Origin: Leptospiraceae bacterium
GTDB lineage: Bacteria > Spirochaetota > Leptospiria > Leptospirales > Leptonemataceae
Assembly (NCBI GenBank): GCA_025059995.1
Contig: JANXCF010000003.1
Location: forward strand, 248,001-312,000
Length of the DNA stretch: 64,000 nt
Reading direction: 5' to 3'
Part shown: piece by piece, positions 12,288 through 58,233 of the stretch
Layout of the letters: each line of letters begins with the position of its first letter
Position numbering within the stretch: position 1 is the first letter of the stretch
Notes under the pieces: model-generated
The model's input: the letters and a program-made list of their open reading frames with translations, nothing else
Database searches by the model: none
Told to the model about the DNA's origin: nothing
Position numbers and translations under genes: made by a program

Positions 12288-12920
12288 ATGAGAGGTCTTC
12301 CCTATTACGAAAATCCAGAGTATCACGAATTTTTACTCTCCCACAAACGAAGAGAACTATTTCCAATTGATAAGATTTTTTCTCAAATCCCTTTAAAAGG
12401 AGTTCAGAATCTTTTAGATTTTGGTATGGGAAATGGCTATTTTTTGAACGCATTTTTTGAATATGGTGAATCCGATATATTTGTTTGGGGAGCGGAATGC
12501 CAAGAAGTATTGATTGATTTCACCCTCAAAAGAAAAGTAAAAGAAAACTTAAAAAACTTTATTCCATTCCATGTAGAAAAAACAGAACATCCTTTGCTAC
12601 CAGAATGGATTCCCGAAATGGACATGATTTTCATTTCTTGTGTGTTATCAACTTTTGCAAACCCTACTTTAGGAATTTTAGGTACAGGTAGAATCTTAAA
12701 AAAAGACGGTTATTTTGTAATCCTTGATTGGGAAAAAGTAGAACTTCCAGTAGGACCCGATATCCATCAAAAAGTATCTTCTGAAAGAATGATGGTATTC
12801 ATTCAAGAGGCAGGGTGCCAAATTGTAAAAAAACTTCAAATCAATCCTTATGTGTACGGCTTTCTTGCGAAAAAGGACCCAGATAAGTTTATTGATATCT
12901 CATACTTAAGACAGCTATAA
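12288..12920 (+). CDS. SAM-dependent methyltransferase (class I)
   Basis: 210 residues with a type-11 methyltransferase fold. Motif I is LLDFGMGNGYF (about residues 43-53), and an acidic residue follows in motif II (WGAECQEV). The post-motif segment ILKKDGYFVILDW matches the family. The substrate cannot be told from the sequence. It is divergent from the FN3/TPR operon, and its stop codon overlaps the convergent mtaB 3' end by 6 bases. Confidence 0.8.
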   Translation: MRGLPYYENPEYHEFLLSHKRRELFPIDKIFSQIPLKGVQNLLDFGMGNGYFLNAFFEYGESDIFVWGAECQEVLIDFTLKRKVKENLKNFIPFHVEKTEHPLLPEWIPEMDMIFISCVLSTFANPTLGILGTGRILKKDGYFVILDWEKVELPVGPDIHQKVSSERMMVFIQEAGCQIVKKLQINPYVYGFLAKKDPDKFIDISYLRQL

Positions 12921-14294
12921 GACTTCACCAATGAGCTCTATTTCTTCGGCTTCGGATGTTAATGTAAAATTTTTTAAACGAACATGGATAAACTGCCCTT
13001 TTTTGTAGCTTTGACTATCTTGAGGCAAATCAACTCGAATATTCAAATAATTATCAGTTAGGATTTTGACATGATTTTTATGATTTTCTTGGACGTCTTC
13101 TATGATTCCTTCAAAAACTTGATGGAGATTCTTTTTTACATATTCTAAAAATAATTCTTTTTTCAAATCTAAAAACAAGTGAACTTTTGCTTTCAATTCA
13201 TTTCTACTAAACAAAGAAATCTTATGTTCACGGATAAAATTTTCTATTTCCGTTCCTTTTCGAAGGGAGAATGGGAAAGGATGAATATGAGCAAAATTAA
13301 GTTCTTTTAGGAGTTTCATTGTATTTTGCAAATCCTCTTGAGTTTCAGTTGGAAATCCCACAATAACGTCCGTTCCCAAAAAAATATTGGGGTTATATTT
13401 TAGAACTTTTTCTATTCTTTTTGTAAAGGTTATCGAATTATAACTTCGTTTCATCAATCGTAAAATTCGATCAGAACCGCTTTGCAAAGGAACATGCAAG
13501 AAATTACAGAACTTAGGATGCAAGGTGAGTTTCGCTAAGGTTTCATTTACATCCGAAGGCTCAATGCTTGAGATTCTCAATCTACTGTAATAAAGTCTAT
13601 CTAAGATTTTTTCCAACAAATCAATAAATCGAATATTTTCATGACGATACCAGCCGATATTCACTCCCGTTAGAATGATTTCTGGTATCTTTAAGGATTG
13701 TAGATAATCAATGTGTCTTAGGATATCATCAATAGGACGAGATACACCACCCCCTCTTGCAAGGGGAATCTTACAATAAGAACACTTACGATCGCATCCA
13801 TCTTGTATTTTTACGTAAGCACGAGTGTGCCCTATAGGAGCTACCAAACCATAATCAAATGGATTTTGTATTTTTCTTCTTTTTTTTGCTTGATGAAACT
13901 CAACCAGAGGACCAGTAGAATAAAGATTTTCTTTTTGTTGAACTTGTTCTAGTTCTTCAAAAATTTGAAAGATTTGACTCTTTTTTTCATTCCCAATGAT
14001 GGCGAAGACTTCTGGGATTTTTTTTAGTTCTTCGATTTCTGTTTGTGCATAGCATCCTGTTACAATAATCTTTGATTTTGGATTGATACGATGCAAAGAT
14101 CGGATAATGTTTCGGTTTTTCGAATCCGCTTGATGAGTAACAGTGCAAGTGTTTACTACGACAACATCAGCACCTTCCCACCAATTTTTGTAGGAATATC
14201 CCTGACTTATAAATTGCTGTAAAATACCATCGGACTCATAAATGTTCAAACGACATCCTAGGGTATAAACAGCTATGCTTTTTTCATTTTTCAT
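12915..14294 (-). CDS. mtaB: tRNA (N6-threonylcarbamoyladenosine37-C2) methylthiotransferase MtaB
   Basis: Radical-SAM methylthiotransferase that adds the methylthio group to t6A37 of ANN-decoding tRNAs. The three N-terminal cluster cysteines are C14 (TLGCRLN), C50 (NTCTVT) and C81 (VTGCYA); the radical-SAM cluster is C167-x3-C171-x2-C174. A TRAM domain is expected at the C-terminus (about 395-455). NTCTVTHQADSKNR is characteristic of MtaB rather than MiaB or RimO. 459 residues is normal. It overlaps the upstream TPR gene by 11 bases and belongs to the clpC operon. Confidence 0.92.
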   Translation of the reverse strand: MKNEKSIAVYTLGCRLNIYESDGILQQFISQGYSYKNWWEGADVVVVNTCTVTHQADSKNRNIIRSLHRINPKSKIIVTGCYAQTEIEELKKIPEVFAIIGNEKKSQIFQIFEELEQVQQKENLYSTGPLVEFHQAKKRRKIQNPFDYGLVAPIGHTRAYVKIQDGCDRKCSYCKIPLARGGGVSRPIDDILRHIDYLQSLKIPEIILTGVNIGWYRHENIRFIDLLEKILDRLYYSRLRISSIEPSDVNETLAKLTLHPKFCNFLHVPLQSGSDRILRLMKRSYNSITFTKRIEKVLKYNPNIFLGTDVIVGFPTETQEDLQNTMKLLKELNFAHIHPFPFSLRKGTEIENFIREHKISLFSRNELKAKVHLFLDLKKELFLEYVKKNLHQVFEGIIEDVQENHKNHVKILTDNYLNIRVDLPQDSQSYKKGQFIHVRLKNFTLTSEAEEIELIGEVL

Positions 14295-15114
14295 CTCTTG
14301 TTAATCGTGCGAGATTGTCTTGTGCAATGGAATAATCATTTTGTATTTGTAAGGCTAATTCATAATATCTTTTCGCTTCTCGTAGAAACGAATTCTTTTC
14401 TTTTGAGTTCTTGGGCTGATTTTGAGCATAAACTTCTTGGATGTATCCTAAATTATTATAAATGGACCTTGCTAAATCTTTTTCAATTTTAGAATGTGAC
14501 AAAATCGTTCGAAAGCGAAACTCCGCTAACTCAAAGTTTTTTTTTGCTAAATAAATAAGTGCATCCAAATACAAAGCCTCCAAAAAATTAGAGTCCTCAG
14601 CAATCAAAGCTTCTGTAATTTTCTTTGCTCTTTCGTAATTTTTCGAATAATAAAACGTCTTTGCATAATAGTAGCGTAAATGTTTTTCTTTTGTTTTATC
14701 CTGTTTTGCTAATGACATTGCTTTTTCTAAAGCTTGTAAGGCTTGGTTCCACTGACCCATTTGATTATAAACATCTGCGAACAAAATCATTACTTCCACT
14801 GAATTCGGATGATCAATAGAAGCATACTTCAAGTGAGCTAAAGCATTTTTATAATCTTTGAGTTCCAAATAGTTGGATGCTGCCAATAAACGAAATTCCA
14901 AAGAATTTCGATAAGAATCGAATACTTCTCGTATCTTGTACAAAGAAGCTTCATATTCCTTTTTCTGAAAGAGCTTTAATGCATCCTCGTAATTCGGAGG
15001 ATAAGACGACAATAGGTTATTGATAAAGATCATAAAGAAAAAAAGAGATAAGTATAAACGAGTCATACTTACTAAATTTTTCTTAAAAACGTTTATAACA
15101 ATAATTTTTTTCAA
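14284..15114 (-). CDS. Exported TPR protein
   Basis: 276 residues. A hydrophobic N-terminal segment (about 17-37) acts as a signal peptide or membrane anchor. The remainder consists of TPR pairs, including YEASLYKIREVF, YKNALAHLKYASIDHPNS and WNQALQALEKAMSLA. It overlaps both neighbours (4 bases with the membrane protein upstream, 11 with mtaB downstream), so it is translated from the clpC operon. Role unknown. Confidence 0.8.
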   Translation of the reverse strand: MKKIIVINVFKKNLVSMTRLYLSLFFFMIFINNLLSSYPPNYEDALKLFQKKEYEASLYKIREVFDSYRNSLEFRLLAASNYLELKDYKNALAHLKYASIDHPNSVEVMILFADVYNQMGQWNQALQALEKAMSLAKQDKTKEKHLRYYYAKTFYYSKNYERAKKITEALIAEDSNFLEALYLDALIYLAKKNFELAEFRFRTILSHSKIEKDLARSIYNNLGYIQEVYAQNQPKNSKEKNSFLREAKRYYELALQIQNDYSIAQDNLARLTRDEK

Positions 15115-15605
15115 CTTAACCTTTTTATTGTCTTTCGAAAAAAACTATAATTTTTATTTAGAGGAAAAACAAAGTTCCTAGCAGGGTCAGAAGTTAAATA
15201 ACGTATGGGTAGTGAAGGTATGAGTTGTAAGAGTTTGTATTCAATTGCTTCGTCACCTATGTAAGTTTCATTATTGACTTTCAAAATGGGGATTTGAAGT
15301 TCCTCATTGAAGATAAGTTCCATCTGATTTTGATTCTCTAATATAAGACTAAAAGGGATTTTAAAAAAACCTGAATATTTCTTTCTTTTGACAGAATATT
15401 TGTAATGAAACCCTATATAGGGTTCAACCCCCTTGTAGTTCTTAAGAAATTGAACTTCTATTCTTTCAACTTCAGCTAAGATCAAGTTACTTTTCCTTTT
15501 GAAGTGAAATAAATACTTATAAGCTAAGTAAAAGAAGATTACTAAAAAACCTAAATAAGTATAGAATGCCATAGTTGTTATATTAAGATGAATTTGCAAA
15601 TCCAT
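15111..15605 (-). CDS. Small membrane protein of unknown function
   Basis: 164 residues with one strong transmembrane helix at about 11-33, followed by a soluble, beta-rich domain of about 125 residues. The arrangement (one membrane helix, then a domain handling a single extended chain) recalls DUF3592-type proteins, but I cannot confirm that. Its start codon abuts the clpC stop and its end overlaps the TPR gene by 4 bases, so it is co-transcribed with clpC. Confidence 0.7.
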   Translation of the reverse strand: MDLQIHLNITTMAFYTYLGFLVIFFYLAYKYLFHFKRKSNLILAEVERIEVQFLKNYKGVEPYIGFHYKYSVKRKKYSGFFKIPFSLILENQNQMELIFNEELQIPILKVNNETYIGDEAIEYKLLQLIPSLPIRYLTSDPARNFVFPLNKNYSFFRKTIKRLS

Positions 15606-18211
15606 TATGAATTCGTTTTTGTAGTACTTGCTGGTTCAACGTCAAAATCTTCAGTTATTTTGACCTTTTTCAAAGTTATTTTTGAACTTCTTTCTTTACG
15701 TTCTTTTTCTTTCATTTCTCTCTCTAACTGCTTTTGCTTGTAAATATCTTCATATTCTTTCCAAAAGTCTTCTTTATAATGTAGCTTTCGCTCACTCTCA
15801 ATGTAGCTCACAAAAACCTTCGTAGGTTCACGGAATGCTCCTTCAAGAAAACGATTTGCTAAGTAATCCTCGATTTCTTTTTGGATTAATCTTCGCAAAG
15901 GTCTAGCTCCATATTTTTCATCGAAACCTTTTTCAGCAAAATATGTCCTTGCAGTTTCATCTATTTCGATCATGATTTTCTTATCGAATAGATATTGGTT
16001 TAGTCGATTTATCATGATATCCACAATTTGTTTTATTTGATCTTTATTTAAAGAATTAAATACCACTATCTCATCAATACGATTCAAAAACTCGGGATTA
16101 AAGTGTCTTTTCACAGCCTCTAAAGCCTTTTCTTTCTTATTCTCTTCTCTTCTTGCTTCATTTTCAGAAAACCCCATTTTTCCACTTTTTTGGAGTTCTC
16201 TTGCACCAATATTTGACGTCATGATGATTATGGTATCTCTGAAATCAACTCTTCTACCATGAGTATCTGTCAAATTTCCTTCTTCTAAAATTTGTAAAAG
16301 GATATTAAAGACATCAGGATGTGCCTTTTCGATTTCATCAAAAAGAATCACCGAATATGGATTGCGACGAACATATTCTGTCAGTTGTCCTGCATCATCA
16401 TATCCAATGTAACCTGGGGGAGAACCTATCAACTTAGAAACTGAATGGGGTTCCATATATTCAGACATGTCTAAACGATAAAGTTTTTCTTCTTTTCCAA
16501 AAAGAAACTCTGCTAAAGCTCTGGCTAATTCGGTTTTTCCTACTCCCGTTGGTCCGAGGAAAATAAAAGAACCTGAGGGTTTTCTTGGATCTTTAAAGCC
16601 TGTCCGTGAACGACGAACAGCTCTACTTACTAAGTGAATAGCTTCATCTTGACCTACTACCCTCTTTTTTAGTTCTTCTTCTAATTTGAGTAGTTTATTA
16701 GCTTCGCTTTCTTCAATCCTTTCTAAGGGAATTCCGGTCCACATACTTACAACTGAATAAATGTCTTCTTCTTGGATTTGAATGGCATAATTCGATAATT
16801 TTTCCTGCCAATCTTGTATGATTTCTTCTAATTGAAGTTTTTTGGTTGCGATTTCATCTCGAACTTGTGCAGCAGCTTCATATTCTTGAGCTTTCACCAA
16901 ATCATCTTTCTTTTTAGTTAATAATTTGATTTCTTCTTCAAGTTCTATGATCTCATCAGGTCGTTTTGAATTTTGAAGTCGAGCTCTTGCACCTGCTTCA
17001 TCGATAATATCGATTGCCTTATCGGGCAAATAGCGATCGTTTATATATCGTGCTGATAATTTGACTGCCATTTCCAATGCTTCATCCATGTATACAACCC
17101 TGTGGTGCTTTTCAAAGGTACTCTTTAATCCTTTTAAGATCATGATAGCATCATCAATGCTTGGCTCTTTCACGTGAATTGGTTGAAATCTTCTTTCCAA
17201 TGCAGCATCTTTTTCAATGTATTTGCGATATTCTGTCAGGGTTGTAGCACCAATGCATTGGATTTCTCCTCTTGCTAAAGCAGGCTTTAACATATTAGCT
17301 GCATCTATTGCACCTTCTGCAGCTCCAGCACCAATGATTGTGTGCAATTCATCAATAAATACAATGATATTTTTTGCATTCTGAATTTCCCTTAGTATTT
17401 TCTTTAAACGATCCTCGAACTCACCACGATATTTTGTTCCTGCAACTAAAGAAGCTAAATCCAATGCCACCACCCTTTTATCCATGAGGATATCAGGAAC
17501 TTCTCCATTGGCTATTCGGATCGCCAGACCTTCTACTATAGCTGTTTTTCCTACTCCCGCCTCACCGATAAGGACAGGGTTGTTTTTCGTTTTCCTACAT
17601 AGAACTTGTGTTAACCTCGCAATTTCCATTTCTCTACCAATTACTGGATCTAGTTTTCTTTCAAAAGCCATCTGAGTTAGATCCCTTGCAAATTCATCCA
17701 GAGTTGGAGTCTTATTTTTTTCGGGAGCTGGTCTTCCCGTTGGTGTGGATTGAGTCGCTTGTGTTGGATTGGTTGAAACCCCTAAAATTCTTAAGATTTC
17801 CCCTTTAATTACGGAATAATTGATTTGAAACTGAGCCAAGGTAGCACCAGCTATATTATTGCTATCTCTAAGCAACGCAAGTAGGATATGCTCGGTTCCC
17901 ACATAGTTGTGTTTTAATCTTCGAGCCTCTTCTTTAGAATAATCAATAATTTTTTGAAATTTATCAGGATTTGGTGATAATTCCAATAGTAATGAACCAC
18001 TTCCCTGTTTTGCTCTTCTTTCTATTTCTTTTTTTAGCTCTTTTAGATCGACTTGGAGATTCTTTAAAATTTTTATGGCTACCGAATCTTCTTCTCGTAG
18101 TAATCCTAATAAAATATGTTCAGGACCAATCATATCATGACCAAGTCGTTTCGCTTCTTGTTGGGCATATTCATTTAAAACTTTTTTAGCTCTTTTGGTA
18201 AAATCAAACAT
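15605..18211 (-). CDS. clpC: ATP-dependent Clp protease ATP-binding subunit ClpC
   Basis: AAA+ unfoldase that feeds substrates to ClpP. 868 residues: a double Clp N-domain (1-145), first AAA module with Walker A GEAGVGKT at 216-223 and Walker [14 protein letters not shown], a UVR-type middle segment (around [15 protein letters not shown]), second AAA module with [16 protein letters not shown], and a charged C-terminal tail. The middle domain distinguishes ClpC from ClpA. In Bacillus ClpC works with McsB, which tags substrates with phosphoarginine; a McsA/McsB-like protein lies at 55070-56206. No ctsR gene is beside clpC. It is first in an operon ending with mtaB. Confidence 0.96.
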
Positions 18212-54314: not shown

Positions 54315-54684
54315 AGTTATGATTTTATAGAACAGCTCCCGATCTTTGAGTTTGATCAAACAAAAAAGTTAGCCACCCACATCAAGGGAATGAATTAGGA
54401 ATCCATGCCATTGGAATTGATATTTCTATTTTTAATGTCTTGATCTCCGAAGTAAAAAAAGTAAACACAACCTTACACAGTTAAACAAAATCGTTTCAAT
54501 TAATAGAATCCCAACGAAGCAAAAACGAGCTCCTTTTTGAAGAAGAACTCAATGAAGAATTATCCAAGTTCAATCAAAAATATTTTTCTCTTCAGAAGAA
54601 AAAAAGAAAAACCACGAACTTGATTATGTAGGTCTTATTGACTATCATGAACAACATACATACGCTTATGAATTATTTGGATGA
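54315..54684 (+). pseudogene. Remnant of a DNA methyltransferase C-terminal part
   Basis: No open frame survives, but the three frames together give a consistent protein-like text. One frame ends ...KKLATHIK; a shift then gives QGNELGIHAIGIDISIFNVLISEVKK (54377-54460), then a stop and another shift give LIESQRSKNELLFEEEL and later HELDYVGLIDYHEQHTYAYELFG. The string NELGIHAIGIDIS-FNVLISEVK is what normally follows the DPFxGSGTT SAM-binding motif in type II DNA methyltransferases; here the GSGTT part itself is damaged. At least three frameshifts or stops are needed. The homology is my recognition and is untested. Confidence 0.5.
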
Positions 54685-54735
54685 AAAAGAAAAGACGAAA
54701 GCGAAACCGGTTCTCTATCAAAAGGAAAAGATTGA

Positions 54736-55009
54736 ATGGCTTTGTTTTCTTTTATTCATTCATTAAATACAACATTTGGAACATCCATATTTGAAACCAT
54801 AGCTGAAATTGTCGCAGGTAAAATTTAAAATAGCAAAAAGGGAATACGTGGTAGGTGATACTATCAGTGAAATAGCTCAAAATGAAATCTGAAAAATCAT
54901 CAATGAAATTTCAATCAGTGGAACGTACAATTTGTTATTAAATTGCTTTGGAAAAGTTGGGAAAGAGTTAAGCTCAGAGATTGATAAAAATTTTTCTAAA
55001 TTTAGATGA
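54736..55009 (+). pseudogene. Remnant of a restriction-endonuclease-like gene
   Basis: An ATG at 54736 opens MALFSFIHSLNTTFGTSIFE and runs to a stop at 54826. A one-base shift restores FKIAKREYVVGDTISEIAQNEI, an in-frame TGA at 54890 interrupts it, and the frame then ends at 55009. The text resembles, from memory, the N-terminus of TdeIII-like type II restriction endonucleases, and it directly follows the methyltransferase remnant, the usual R-M order. Most of the expected protein is missing. The residual bases 55010-55069 hold nothing I can name. Confidence 0.45.
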
Positions 55010-55069
55010 TATTGTTTCCAAATTATTTAGATGTTAGTAAATAAAATTGTTATTTCGAATTTTCATTTC

Positions 55070-56206
55070 TTAAAAAATCACCAAGATCTCTCGCATCCAG
55101 TGAGAAAAGCTTGTTTCCCATTCTTGAGAGTTTTGGTTCAAATCCAAATAAGGTAAATTCCATCCTATCGTAAGGAAATCCTTGATTTCTGTGTTTTCTC
55201 CCTGATCACCACGAAGGGTAAAGTTTTTGAGCCTTGTAAAAAAAGCACTTCTTGAGAAATACTTTTTGTTTTTTTTGATTTTTTTATTTTCTGCGGGAAA
55301 TCGAAGGTATAGCTTAATTCCACTTCCGGTATTGGTTGGGCACTTGGCTAAAAATCCCCAATTCGGATGAAGCTGCCAAAAAAAATTGAAATCAATTAGT
55401 AAAGTTAATTTATAAAATTTTTTTATTGCCTGAGAAACATCAAAAATCAGTTCTTCATCAAAATGTTTATACTTCTTCCAAAATAAATAATCTATGCGTA
55501 AATGATCTTCATCACCAACGTATAATCTTATGACTTTATTTTCATCAATCCCCCAAGAAATGTTGGTAAATTCTTGTTTGATAAGAAACTTATTCCTGAT
55601 TAAATCTGGGATTTGTAGAGAATCATAAAAAGTAATAGAAAAAACTTCAGATAAGCTCTTCTTCAAAAAAGAACTCGGACTAAGAAAAAATTTTGAAAGA
55701 AACCCCATCTCGTAGAGAACTAAATCATAATGGATTGATGGGACATTTCGATTAAGCCTCAAGCGAACACTCACTTCACCTTCTGACTGAAAGGGAATTT
55801 CTTTGATGTCTTTGAGAAAAAACTCATTTTCTGGATGGAATTGGTACCGATTCTTCCATTCTTCTTTTAGAATTTCCCATCGAGAAATTGCCTTTTTATT
55901 ATCTTGAATTTTTTTTGAGTATTCTTCGAAGTAAATTTTTTCTTTTTGGTAAATTTCATCAAGTTCTTGATGATCCAATAATGATTGCAAATCATACTCA
56001 AACGTATAATAACAATGTTCACAAAAAGCCTTCTTGGTAGAATAGATTTCTTTTAGTTCTTTCCCGCACTGACATTTACGATTGGTATATTGTAGCATGG
56101 GGAAAGAAACCATGTTTTTGCAATGTTCACAATAAATCATGGTATCTTTGAGGGTATCTGATAAAATAAAAACAGAGATGTCCTTACCACAAAAAGGACA
56201 GTTCAT
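55070..56206 (-). CDS. McsA/McsB-like fusion: zinc-finger protein with a phosphagen-kinase-type (protein arginine kinase) domain
   Basis: 378 residues. The N-terminus is McsA-like, with Cys pairs C3/C6, C26/C29, C45/C47 and C62/C65, enough for two zinc sites. A charged helical segment (75-130) follows. Residues 140-350 match the ATP:guanido phosphotransferase fold of McsB: SVRLRLNRN (146-154) for SSRVRLARN, GDEDHLRI (231-238) for NEEDHLRI with the catalytic Glu at E233, the active-site Cys in CPTNTGSG at C289, and the RG...GENTE loop (R332, E340). One phosphate-binding Arg after CPTN is Lys298. The kinase is shorter than McsB (about 350), and the C-terminal phosphoarginine-binding domain is mostly absent. 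It likely phosphorylates arginines for ClpC. It lies upstream of nothing related; its start is 3 bases after the lolD stop. Confidence 0.72.
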   Translation of the reverse strand: MNCPFCGKDISVFILSDTLKDTMIYCEHCKNMVSFPMLQYTNRKCQCGKELKEIYSTKKAFCEHCYYTFEYDLQSLLDHQELDEIYQKEKIYFEEYSKKIQDNKKAISRWEILKEEWKNRYQFHPENEFFLKDIKEIPFQSEGEVSVRLRLNRNVPSIHYDLVLYEMGFLSKFFLSPSSFLKKSLSEVFSITFYDSLQIPDLIRNKFLIKQEFTNISWGIDENKVIRLYVGDEDHLRIDYLFWKKYKHFDEELIFDVSQAIKKFYKLTLLIDFNFFWQLHPNWGFLAKCPTNTGSGIKLYLRFPAENKKIKKNKKYFSRSAFFTRLKNFTLRGDQGENTEIKDFLTIGWNLPYLDLNQNSQEWETSFSHWMREILVIF

Positions 56207-56209
56207 AAA

Positions 56210-56893
56210 TTAGATTTTGTAGAGTTTTCCGTTTTCCAGTTGGTATCGATTTGGGATCTCTTTCGTTATGTCTCGATCATGCGAAACCAGCACCATTGTG
56301 AATTGATATTCATCATGGAGTTTCCACAAGAGCTCCACTACCTTGAGGGAGTTTTCTTTGTCGAGATTTCCCGTGGGTTCATCGGCTAAGATGATTTTCT
56401 TTTTTCCCACCAATGCTCGGGCTACTGCCACCCTTGCCATTTCCCCTCCTGAGATCTGCGAGGGATAATGATGAAGTCGATGGGATAACCCCACTTTGTT
56501 TAAAATGTCTTTTGCTTCTTCTATTAACTCTTTGTTTCTTGTGGATTTGACTTTTTGATTTTTAATCCATAATGGCATCAATACATTTTCCAAAACCGTG
56601 AAATCAGGTAGTAAATAATAATGCTGAAAGATAAACCCGATCACATGGGAACGAAAATTATCGATCATCTTTGTGTCTTCGAAAATGACTTTTTGATTTT
56701 CTATGTAAATTTCTCCCAGCGTAGGTTTGTCTATGGTGCCAATCAAGTTCAAAAGCGTGCTTTTTCCAGAACCACTTGCCCCTTCGATAGAAATCACTGA
56801 CTGCGATGGAACCACCAAATCAATCCCTTGAAGAACTCGAACTTCTTCTCCTTCTGAAATGTAAGTCTTATGAACTTGAAAGAGCTCTATCAT
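56210..56893 (-). CDS. lolD: LolD-type ABC transporter ATP-binding protein
   Basis: About 227 residues from the ATG at 56893 (a TTG at 56899 overlaps the permease stop). Walker A is GASGSGKSTLL near residue 37, the signature is ISGGEMARVAVARAL, Walker B is KIILADEPTGNLD, and the switch His follows in VSHDRD. It powers the adjacent LolC/E-like permease, which together would release lipoproteins from the inner membrane. The wider MacB/LolD family also includes other exporters. Only one permease gene is present here. Confidence 0.88.
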   Translation of the reverse strand: MIELFQVHKTYISEGEEVRVLQGIDLVVPSQSVISIEGASGSGKSTLLNLIGTIDKPTLGEIYIENQKVIFEDTKMIDNFRSHVIGFIFQHYYLLPDFTVLENVLMPLWIKNQKVKSTRNKELIEEAKDILNKVGLSHRLHHYPSQISGGEMARVAVARALVGKKKIILADEPTGNLDKENSLKVVELLWKLHDEYQFTMVLVSHDRDITKEIPNRYQLENGKLYKI

Positions 56894-56895
56894 AA

Positions 56896-58233
56896 TCAAT
56901 CGTTTCTGATGGTTTCAACCGGTTCTACTCTCGATGCCATACGTGCAGGAAAATACCCAGCAATCCCACTGAGTATCATCGTAAAAATACTAATCGAAAT
57001 CAAAAAGATTATATCTACATTCACAGGAAGGTGATCAAAATAATAAATATTTCTAGGAATCAAGTATATAGTAGAGCAATGTTGAAACAAAACCTTACAG
57101 GAATGATTTAATAGATCTTCAATAAATTTTATAAAAGATTCTAAATTTTTTGAAGCATAAATCCCCATAGAACCACCAATCAAACAAGCAAAAAAACCAA
57201 TAAACAAAGAATGACTTACGAAAATGATCAAAATGGATTTTGTGGGTAATCCCATAGCTCTCAACATCCCAATACTTTTTCGCTTTGACTGAACCAATAA
57301 GTGAGAAGTTATCCAAATGCCTGCAATGCCAGCCAGAATCAAAAATCCCAAAATCATCATCATTAAGGTTTTTTCTAATTGTAGTGCTGCTAAGAAATTC
57401 CCCCGCTCATCTTTTATTGTAGAAATAGAATACTCATAGGGATTTATGAGGACCTCGCGAATCAAGGTCTTGTAATTATCAATACCACTCAAATCCTTTA
57501 ATTGAACGATGATGGAGGTTGTTTGATTTGGGATTTGAAGAATCCTCTGAGCTGTAGCAAGCGAGATAAAAATCAAATTCAAATCAAACTCATAAAATCC
57601 TGTTCGAAAAAAACCTCCAATAAGAAACTCCACCCTTTGGATCTGAACCCCACGAGCAAAAATCCCACCTTTGGGTAGAAAAACAGTGATTTTGTCTCCT
57701 AACTGCCAACCATATAATCTTGCCATTTCTTTTCCTATGATGGCTATATTTTCTCTATTCATTTTTTCTAAAAACGCTGAATCAAAATGTATGATTTCCG
57801 GAAAGTCTTTGATACTTCCTAATTTCGCTTCTTCGATATTCACGGGGATTGCTCTGATACCTTTGCCTTCAAACCTTCCTTGATATTCCAAAAGCCCATT
57901 CACAAAAATAGAAGGAAATACAGAACGAAGATTATTTCTCAAATAGTCCTGGTTATTCCAAATATTGTCAATAATTTCTTGATAGTTATCGATTAACTCA
58001 TTTGGATTCACATACGAAATAGTAATATGATATCCTGAACTCCATAAAGATCTTTTAACTTCTTGTTGGAAACCATTGAATACCGAAAGAACCACCACCA
58101 TGATAAAAACCATAAGAGACATAAACATCAAAGAAAGTCTCGTCCCTGTGTGTAATAACGATAATCGGCTTTGTCCCCGCAAATAACGAAAGGCTATAAA
58201 AAGTTCTAAAAAATAATTACGATAAAAGAACAT
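56896..58233 (-). CDS. LolC/E-type ABC transporter permease (FtsX-like)
   Basis: 445 residues. Transmembrane helix 1 lies at about 32-55, a large periplasmic domain spans 56-290, and three more helices lie at about 295-320, 340-365 and 400-430. The end PARMASRVEPVETIRND is typical of LolC/E. It forms the membrane part for the LolD-like ATPase encoded immediately after. A single LolC/E protein may work as a homodimer (LolF-like). Confidence 0.88.
   Translation of the reverse strand: MFFYRNYFLELFIAFRYLRGQSRLSLLHTGTRLSLMFMSLMVFIMVVVLSVFNGFQQEVKRSLWSSGYHITISYVNPNELIDNYQEIIDNIWNNQDYLRNNLRSVFPSIFVNGLLEYQGRFEGKGIRAIPVNIEEAKLGSIKDFPEIIHFDSAFLEKMNRENIAIIGKEMARLYGWQLGDKITVFLPKGGIFARGVQIQRVEFLIGGFFRTGFYEFDLNLIFISLATAQRILQIPNQTTSIIVQLKDLSGIDNYKTLIREVLINPYEYSISTIKDERGNFLAALQLEKTLMMMILGFLILAGIAGIWITSHLLVQSKRKSIGMLRAMGLPTKSILIIFVSHSLFIGFFACLIGGSMGIYASKNLESFIKFIEDLLNHSCKVLFQHCSTIYLIPRNIYYFDHLPVNVDIIFLISISIFTMILSGIAGYFPARMASRVEPVETIRND

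Follow-up and report, generated by a model that had tools for sequence, protein, structure and literature searches.

A one-chain McsA-McsB homologue, a putative protein-arginine kinase, in the Leptospirales

The closest described relatives of the gene studied here are McsB of Staphylococcus aureus, Bacillus subtilis and Geobacillus stearothermophilus (Protein Data Bank (PDB) entries 6fh1, 6tv6, 8gqd and 8wtb) and its zinc-finger activator, McsA. In S. aureus, McsB has a phosphotransferase domain (residues 1-251) and a dimerization domain (252-336), and the second zinc finger of McsA touches the McsB loop that precedes the catalytic cysteine and orients that cysteine (PMC12467219). The phosphoarginine receptor of McsB is formed by R337 and D338 (PMC8370763), and the N-domain of ClpC binds phosphoarginine and becomes activated by it (PMC12583610). 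According to the title of its entry, a further structure, PDB 8wtc, shows McsA in complex with only the kinase domain of McsB. Here we analyse a gene of a Leptospiraceae bacterium that lies in a stretch of 64,000 nucleotides (the window: GenBank assembly GCA_025059995.1, contig JANXCF010000003.1, positions 248,001 to 312,000 of the forward strand). To judge from its sequence, the open reading frame (ORF) at 55070-56206 almost certainly encodes a single-chain homologue of both McsA and McsB with a shortened kinase. We found no description of an McsA-McsB fusion, or of McsB in Leptospira, in the open-licence literature.

The fusion resembles McsB in having the phosphotransferase domain, the motifs RxRxxRN, EDHxR, CPTN and RGxxGE, and a linkage to clpC. 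It differs in lacking the dimerization domain and the R337/D338 receptor and in being joined to its activator, and its identity to canonical McsB domains is about 16-24%. With McsA it shares a pair of zinc fingers, ordered alike and placed just before the kinase, the second of them reading GCxxCY in most members. Unlike McsA, it is not a separate protein, it has no UVR motif (PF02151; no match in 19 fusion members, nor at the fusion locus in the window genome), some relatives have lost the first finger, and the window genus has CxC in place of CxxC. Homologues were collected with PF00217 and then with a 19-member profile, over 30 genomes of the order Leptospirales. The features of the gene and its product are the following.

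55070..56206, minus strand: mcsAB fusion gene (378 amino acids; ORF with an ATG start), encoding McsA-type zinc fingers, a linker and an McsB-type phosphotransferase domain
56120..56200, minus strand: zinc finger 1, C3 C6 / C26 C29 (residues 3-29), corresponding to the N-terminal finger of McsA, from the alignment of 19 members
56012..56074, minus strand: zinc finger 2, C45 C47 / C62 C65 (residues 45-65), corresponding to the finger through which McsA touches McsB, invariant in 19/19 members
55073..55786, minus strand: McsB-type phosphotransferase domain (about residues 141-378), ending where the McsB dimerization domain would start, from the profile-profile match and Foldseek
55508..55510, minus strand: E233, catalytic glutamate of the xxEDHxR motif, invariant in fusions and canonical McsB
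55340..55342, minus strand: C289, active-site cysteine of CPTN, from the alignment with canonical McsB
55313..55315, minus strand: K298, a lysine at a nearly invariant arginine position, from the alignment
55211..55213, minus strand: R332 of the RGxxGE motif, from the alignment
55196..55198, minus strand: E337, second catalytic glutamate, the conserved glutamate five residues after the arginine of RGxxGE

An earlier note on this DNA, made from the letters alone, had proposed a single-chain McsA/McsB-like protein. Its coordinates were borne out, with the gene on the minus strand, as were the sequence marks that it had listed. The cysteines of the protein (residues 3, 6, 26, 29, 45, 47, 62, 65 and 289) include four pairs inside residues 3-65, of which the third is CxC and not CxxC. 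The motifs are in place too, SVRLRLNRN starting at residue 146, GDEDH at 231 (with E233), CPTNTG at 289 (C289) and RGDQGENTE at 332 (R332). The guanido kinase relationship that it had predicted was recovered too, since the ATP:guanido phosphotransferase family PF00217 matches the window protein above its cut-off (E-value 5.9e-9; 36.1 bits versus 22.4). The NCBIfam McsB models give 28.7 and 26.5 bits on this protein and miss their equivalog cut-off of 385-500 bits, so that, by its profile scores, it is a divergent McsB relative and no equivalog under the NCBIfam cut-off rule. When the PDB was searched with the window protein as a single sequence, creatine kinases (the best matches), arginine kinases and McsB came up, all at marginal E-values, and a profile was therefore required.

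Profiles matched both halves. In profile-profile comparisons, the fusion aligned with full-length McsB from residue ~140 to its end (probability 99.9, E-value 3.6e-33), and with McsA from other phyla over residues 1-88 (probability 99.1, E-value 3.9e-19). The fusion profile also matched the PDB chains of McsA (8wtb_B, 1.3e-12; 8gqd_E, 6.2e-9) and McsB (6fh1, 1.2e-27). Among the 19 members, the NCBIfam McsB models match all, and the McsA model matches 15 at E-value <= 0.01, a threshold that the window protein by itself does not reach with the McsA model. These matches, together with the position of the gene between lolD and clpC in relatives, uphold the single-chain claim. An assembly or gene-calling artefact was ruled out as the source of the fusion, as the identical chain architecture is found in 22 genomes.

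The McsB match stops at about position 250 of 362, which is where the window ORF and its relatives end. Given the 251/252 boundary between the S. aureus domains, the fusion thus ends at a domain border, leaving out the dimerization domain and, with it, the phosphoarginine receptor. The loss of the phosphoarginine-binding region had been anticipated as the region being "largely lost"; the loss is real, but it is complete. In terms of sequence features, the fusion thus fails one defining characteristic of McsB, the dimerization domain, and one of McsA, the UVR motif. A separate McsA elsewhere in the window genome was looked for by a UVR search, which gave only proteins of UvrB/UvrC size, ClpC, a 203-residue protein and weak matches, none of them McsA-like, an McsA without UVR being outside the reach of this search. 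The 203-residue UVR-containing protein reads like a bifunctional nuclease.

We aligned the fusion with 38 canonical McsB domains. R148, R150, R153, N154, E233, D234, H235, R237, C289, P290, N292, R332, G336 and E337 (window protein numbering) are invariant in these domains, and position 298 is a nearly invariant arginine. The window protein keeps the whole catalytic set (RxRxxRN, EDHxR, CPTN and RGxxGE) except for this arginine, replaced by K298. The earlier note was thus right about the substitution and about E233, C289 and R332, which align with canonical McsB, and mistaken in taking E340 as the catalytic glutamate: E337, five residues after R332, aligns with the conserved McsB glutamate, and position 340 is a glutamine in nearly all canonical McsB. 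We found no useful paper in the open-licence literature on the effect of an arginine-to-lysine change at this position.

The single-chain fusion occurs in 22 of the 30 genomes of the order, distributed in two families: f1, that of the window (18/22 genomes), and f2 (4/8). Named records among the carriers are metagenome-assembled genomes labelled "Leptospiraceae" and "Spirochaetaceae", and we infer that f1 corresponds to Leptonema-like and f2 to Leptospira-like organisms. In a sample spread over the phylum of spirochaetes, 244 of 393 genomes match. Among the matches listed, an uninterrupted chain spanning both halves occurs only in f1 and f2, those elsewhere in the phylum being either two separate matches or one interrupted by a stop codon, and none is from a genome of another order of the class. 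Transfer on plasmids found no support, the plasmid search giving no match. As for other phyla, the tblastn matches over residues 1-341 turned out to come from mcsA and mcsB genes that are neighbours but not fused. In a maximum likelihood tree of the kinase domain, made by a quick method with the 19 fusions and 55 separate McsB, all fusions lie together on one side of a branch, apart from the separate McsB (Shimodaira-Hasegawa-like approximate likelihood ratio test, 97). Its branches are long, and the position of the root is uncertain. On the evidence of this tree, the fusions are a single clade within Leptospirales.

The members are only 19-36% identical to the window protein, and 12 columns are invariant in all 19: C45, C47, C62, C65, R148, R150, R153, N154, E233, D234, H235 and R237. 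All 12 fall within the set made of the second-finger cysteines and the catalytic motif residues (hypergeometric p about 1e-16, a value that is illustrative only because the set was picked with the alignment in view). The other features are less uniform. The first finger is missing in L021, L022, L025 and L026 and altered in L023, and the GCxxCY of the second finger reads FCEHCY in the window protein. Most members of f1 retain C289, R332 and E337; C289 is replaced by serine in L009 and L027 and by histidine in L022.

AlphaFold2, run on an alignment of the window protein and related-locus proteins only, gave a full-chain model with a predicted local distance difference test score (pLDDT) of 79.7 and a predicted template-modelling score (pTM) of 0.80, and a kinase-domain model with 82.0 and 0.79, respectively. 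The first six Foldseek hits of the kinase-domain model are all McsB (E-values 1.3e-10 to 5.4e-9). For the full-chain model, the E-values of the hits, to arginine kinases and McsB, are about 1e-8, with low template-modelling (TM) scores and root-mean-square deviations (rmsd) above 7. These models support an McsB-type fold for the kinase half, though not its atomic detail.

The genes around the fusion, and those of clpC, are listed below.

56210..56899, minus strand: lolD-like ATP-binding cassette (ABC) ATPase gene, 3 nt upstream of the fusion gene, a conserved neighbour by domain matches and synteny
56896..58233, minus strand: lolC/E-like permease gene, overlapping lolD, a conserved neighbour by domain matches and synteny
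54315..55069, no strand: stretch of 755 nt without a convincing gene on ORF inspection, at the place that clpC has in relatives
15605..18211, minus strand: clpC (868 amino acids; two Clp_N, AAA and UVR), the presumed partner, 37 kb from the fusion gene
12915..15605, minus strand: genes of a 164-residue protein, a tetratricopeptide repeat (TPR) protein and an MtaB-like radical S-adenosylmethionine enzyme, which in relatives likewise come after clpC (synteny)

In 14 of 16 relatives clpC is the next gene downstream of the fusion gene, with the same orientation and after a gap of 35-316 nt, and the pair mostly follows lolC-lolD and precedes a small gene, the TPR gene and the MtaB-like gene. The gene had been described as far from clpC. 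This holds for the window genome and a few relatives; the adjacency in most others indicates that the 37-kb distance results from a local rearrangement. All three congeners of the window species have the clpC block next to the fusion gene. The clpC of the window is 64-90% identical to the clpC that adjoins the fusion gene in relatives, and since the same three genes follow it there, the block was relocated along with it. Short in-frame pieces on the plus strand at 54638-54828, within the 755-nt stretch, resemble a decayed gene. Two other genomes, G007 (L145) and G025 (L154), have the fusion gene beside lolD and clpC elsewhere, so the split has seemingly occurred more than once. The fusion gene can also disappear: in G005 (L183) and G017 (L182), both of f1, lolC-lolD is followed by clpC after a gap of about 175 nt, the fusion gene having been cleanly lost, and four Leptospira-like genomes (g15) have clpC and no match to the fusion. 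In the Leptospira-like genome G024 (L139:1504-2391, minus strand), a degenerate version of 295 residues stands between lolD and clpC.

Outside the order, spirochaetes have mcsA and mcsB as separate genes, at times also with clpC (e.g., G050 L192, G053 L196 and G058 L197). These resemble the fusion in gene slot, and they differ in being two genes, in encoding a full-length McsB with its C-terminal domain and, in several cases, in having degenerate active sites. The order is lolC-lolD-mcsA-mcsB-clpC in G050 and lolC-mcsA-mcsB-clpC in G052, and these shared neighbours place the fusion in the ancestral mcsA-mcsB slot. In L002 (G058), G076:C33 and G117:C3, mcsA and mcsB share a reading frame and are separated by only one stop codon, the removal of which would fuse them in a single step. 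Separate adjacent mcsA and mcsB (L043-L117) were also found in Planctomycetota, Omnitrophota, Elusimicrobiota, Gemmatimonadota, WOR-3, Zixibacteria, Armatimonadota, Synergistota and others. Hence, McsA and McsB are not the Firmicutes speciality that they had been taken for: they occur in many phyla, with relatives in most of the spirochaete genomes searched. Several separate spirochaete McsB beside mcsA, those of L004 (G055), L006 (G050), L008 (G052) and L011 (G048), have lost the glutamate of EDH, the cysteine of CPTN and other catalytic residues; those of G050, G052 and G048 also adjoin clpC. The pattern of these residues suggests that several lineages of spirochaetes retained McsA-McsB without its kinase activity.

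The fusion most likely works like McsA-McsB. We give a probability of roughly 65% to the reading that it is a protein-arginine kinase whose marked products are delivered to ClpCP, as its residues and neighbours would have it. The fusion would move phosphate from ATP onto arginines of damaged proteins, and the proteins so marked would then be degraded by ClpC/ClpP. The invariant second zinc finger would do in cis what that of S. aureus McsA does in trans, setting the active-site loop and the cysteine, which would make a separate activator, a dimer and phosphoarginine feedback unnecessary. The switch could then be the loss of zinc from this finger or the oxidation of its thiols. In favour of this reading, McsA can bind an McsB kinase domain without the rest of the chain (PDB 8wtc, by its title).

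Several observations weigh against this reading. The main one is that McsB is reported to need dimerization for full activity (PMC8370763), when the fusion has no dimerization domain; a tetramer is likewise reported to be essential in the S. aureus McsA-McsB complex (PMC12467219). Within its genus, only the window species has the K298 substitution, the three congeners (L016, L020 and L022) carrying arginine. Members of f2 keep the arginine motifs and EDH, have a lysine at 298 and have lost R332 and E337. The G024 version has one zinc finger left, reads GDEDGIR (EDH changed to EDG) and has no RGxxGE, changes that give it the look of a pseudokinase or of a decaying gene. Three f1 genomes of one genus kept clpC and miss the fusion gene. 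The McsB hits of the kinase-domain model have TM scores (query) of only 0.52-0.59 and rmsd of 5.7-6.8. Finally, neither CtsR nor a phosphatase with CTGNTCRS, which we take to be the YwlE-type signature, was found in the window genome, whose two low-molecular-weight phosphatases read CHGNICRS and CTGNSCRS, so that a regulated cycle of the Bacillus type is incomplete here. The B. subtilis genome used as a control gave no match to PF00217, CtsR or Clp_N; that copy seems to be without the ctsR-mcsA-mcsB-clpC operon, which makes the control uninformative.

Part of this evidence would suit a catalytically weak or dead adaptor, in which the McsA/McsB fold is kept to bring substrates to ClpC or to activate it, without arginine phosphorylation. 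The loss of catalytic residues in f2 and in the G024 version, which is still placed between lolD and clpC, speaks for such a role, as do the separate spirochaete McsB that lack the catalytic glutamate, arginine or cysteine and K298 in the window protein itself. Yet the catalytic arginines, the glutamate and EDH are invariant in f1 despite low identity, which indicates selection for catalysis, and the window protein retains E233, C289, R332 and E337. We thus regard the adaptor as an unlikely account of the window protein, and as a possible role for some of the degenerate relatives, given the residues that they have lost.

A dedicated regulatory kinase with few targets, for example in Lol lipoprotein transport or a stress regulator, instead of a general degradation marker, seems improbable to us. 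Its appeal lies in the close linkage to lolC-lolD, which persists in G007 and G025 with clpC elsewhere, and in the window, where the gene has also stayed with lolCD. However, clpC is the next gene in most relatives, and the lolCD linkage is also seen with separate mcsA-mcsB and may be operon history. It is more improbable still that the protein is a bacterial phosphagen kinase, acting on free arginine or another guanidino compound and unrelated to proteolysis. The Pfam domain is common to phosphagen kinases, with which the fusion shares the catalytic domain fold and residues, and creatine kinases lead the single-sequence PDB matches. But the arginine and creatine kinases have an extra N-terminal domain, small-molecule substrates, no zinc fingers and no linkage to clpC. 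No Pfam match to their N-terminal substrate-specificity domain was found in the window protein or the 19 members, where this region is McsA-like plus linker. The profile score per domain is 99 bits for McsB versus 77-78 for the two domains of a double arginine kinase, and only McsB agrees with an McsA half and with clpC as a neighbour.

Going beyond kinase activity and ClpCP delivery, we propose, with odds that we see as somewhat short of even, a minimal one-chain kinase that would be active undimerized through its own zinc finger, without the phosphoarginine receptor, CtsR or a YwlE-type phosphatase. It would represent a redesigned ClpCP tag specific to Leptospirales, which later became a pseudokinase or was lost on the Leptospira side. 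A clade that has fused the activator and dropped the dimerization and receptor domain would be a natural experiment on the parts that arginine tagging needs, and the fusion may be a handy one-chain enzyme for biochemistry. Considering that most of the searched genomes have McsA/McsB relatives, several of them without catalytic residues, arginine-phosphate tagging and its decay are worth studying in spirochaetes.
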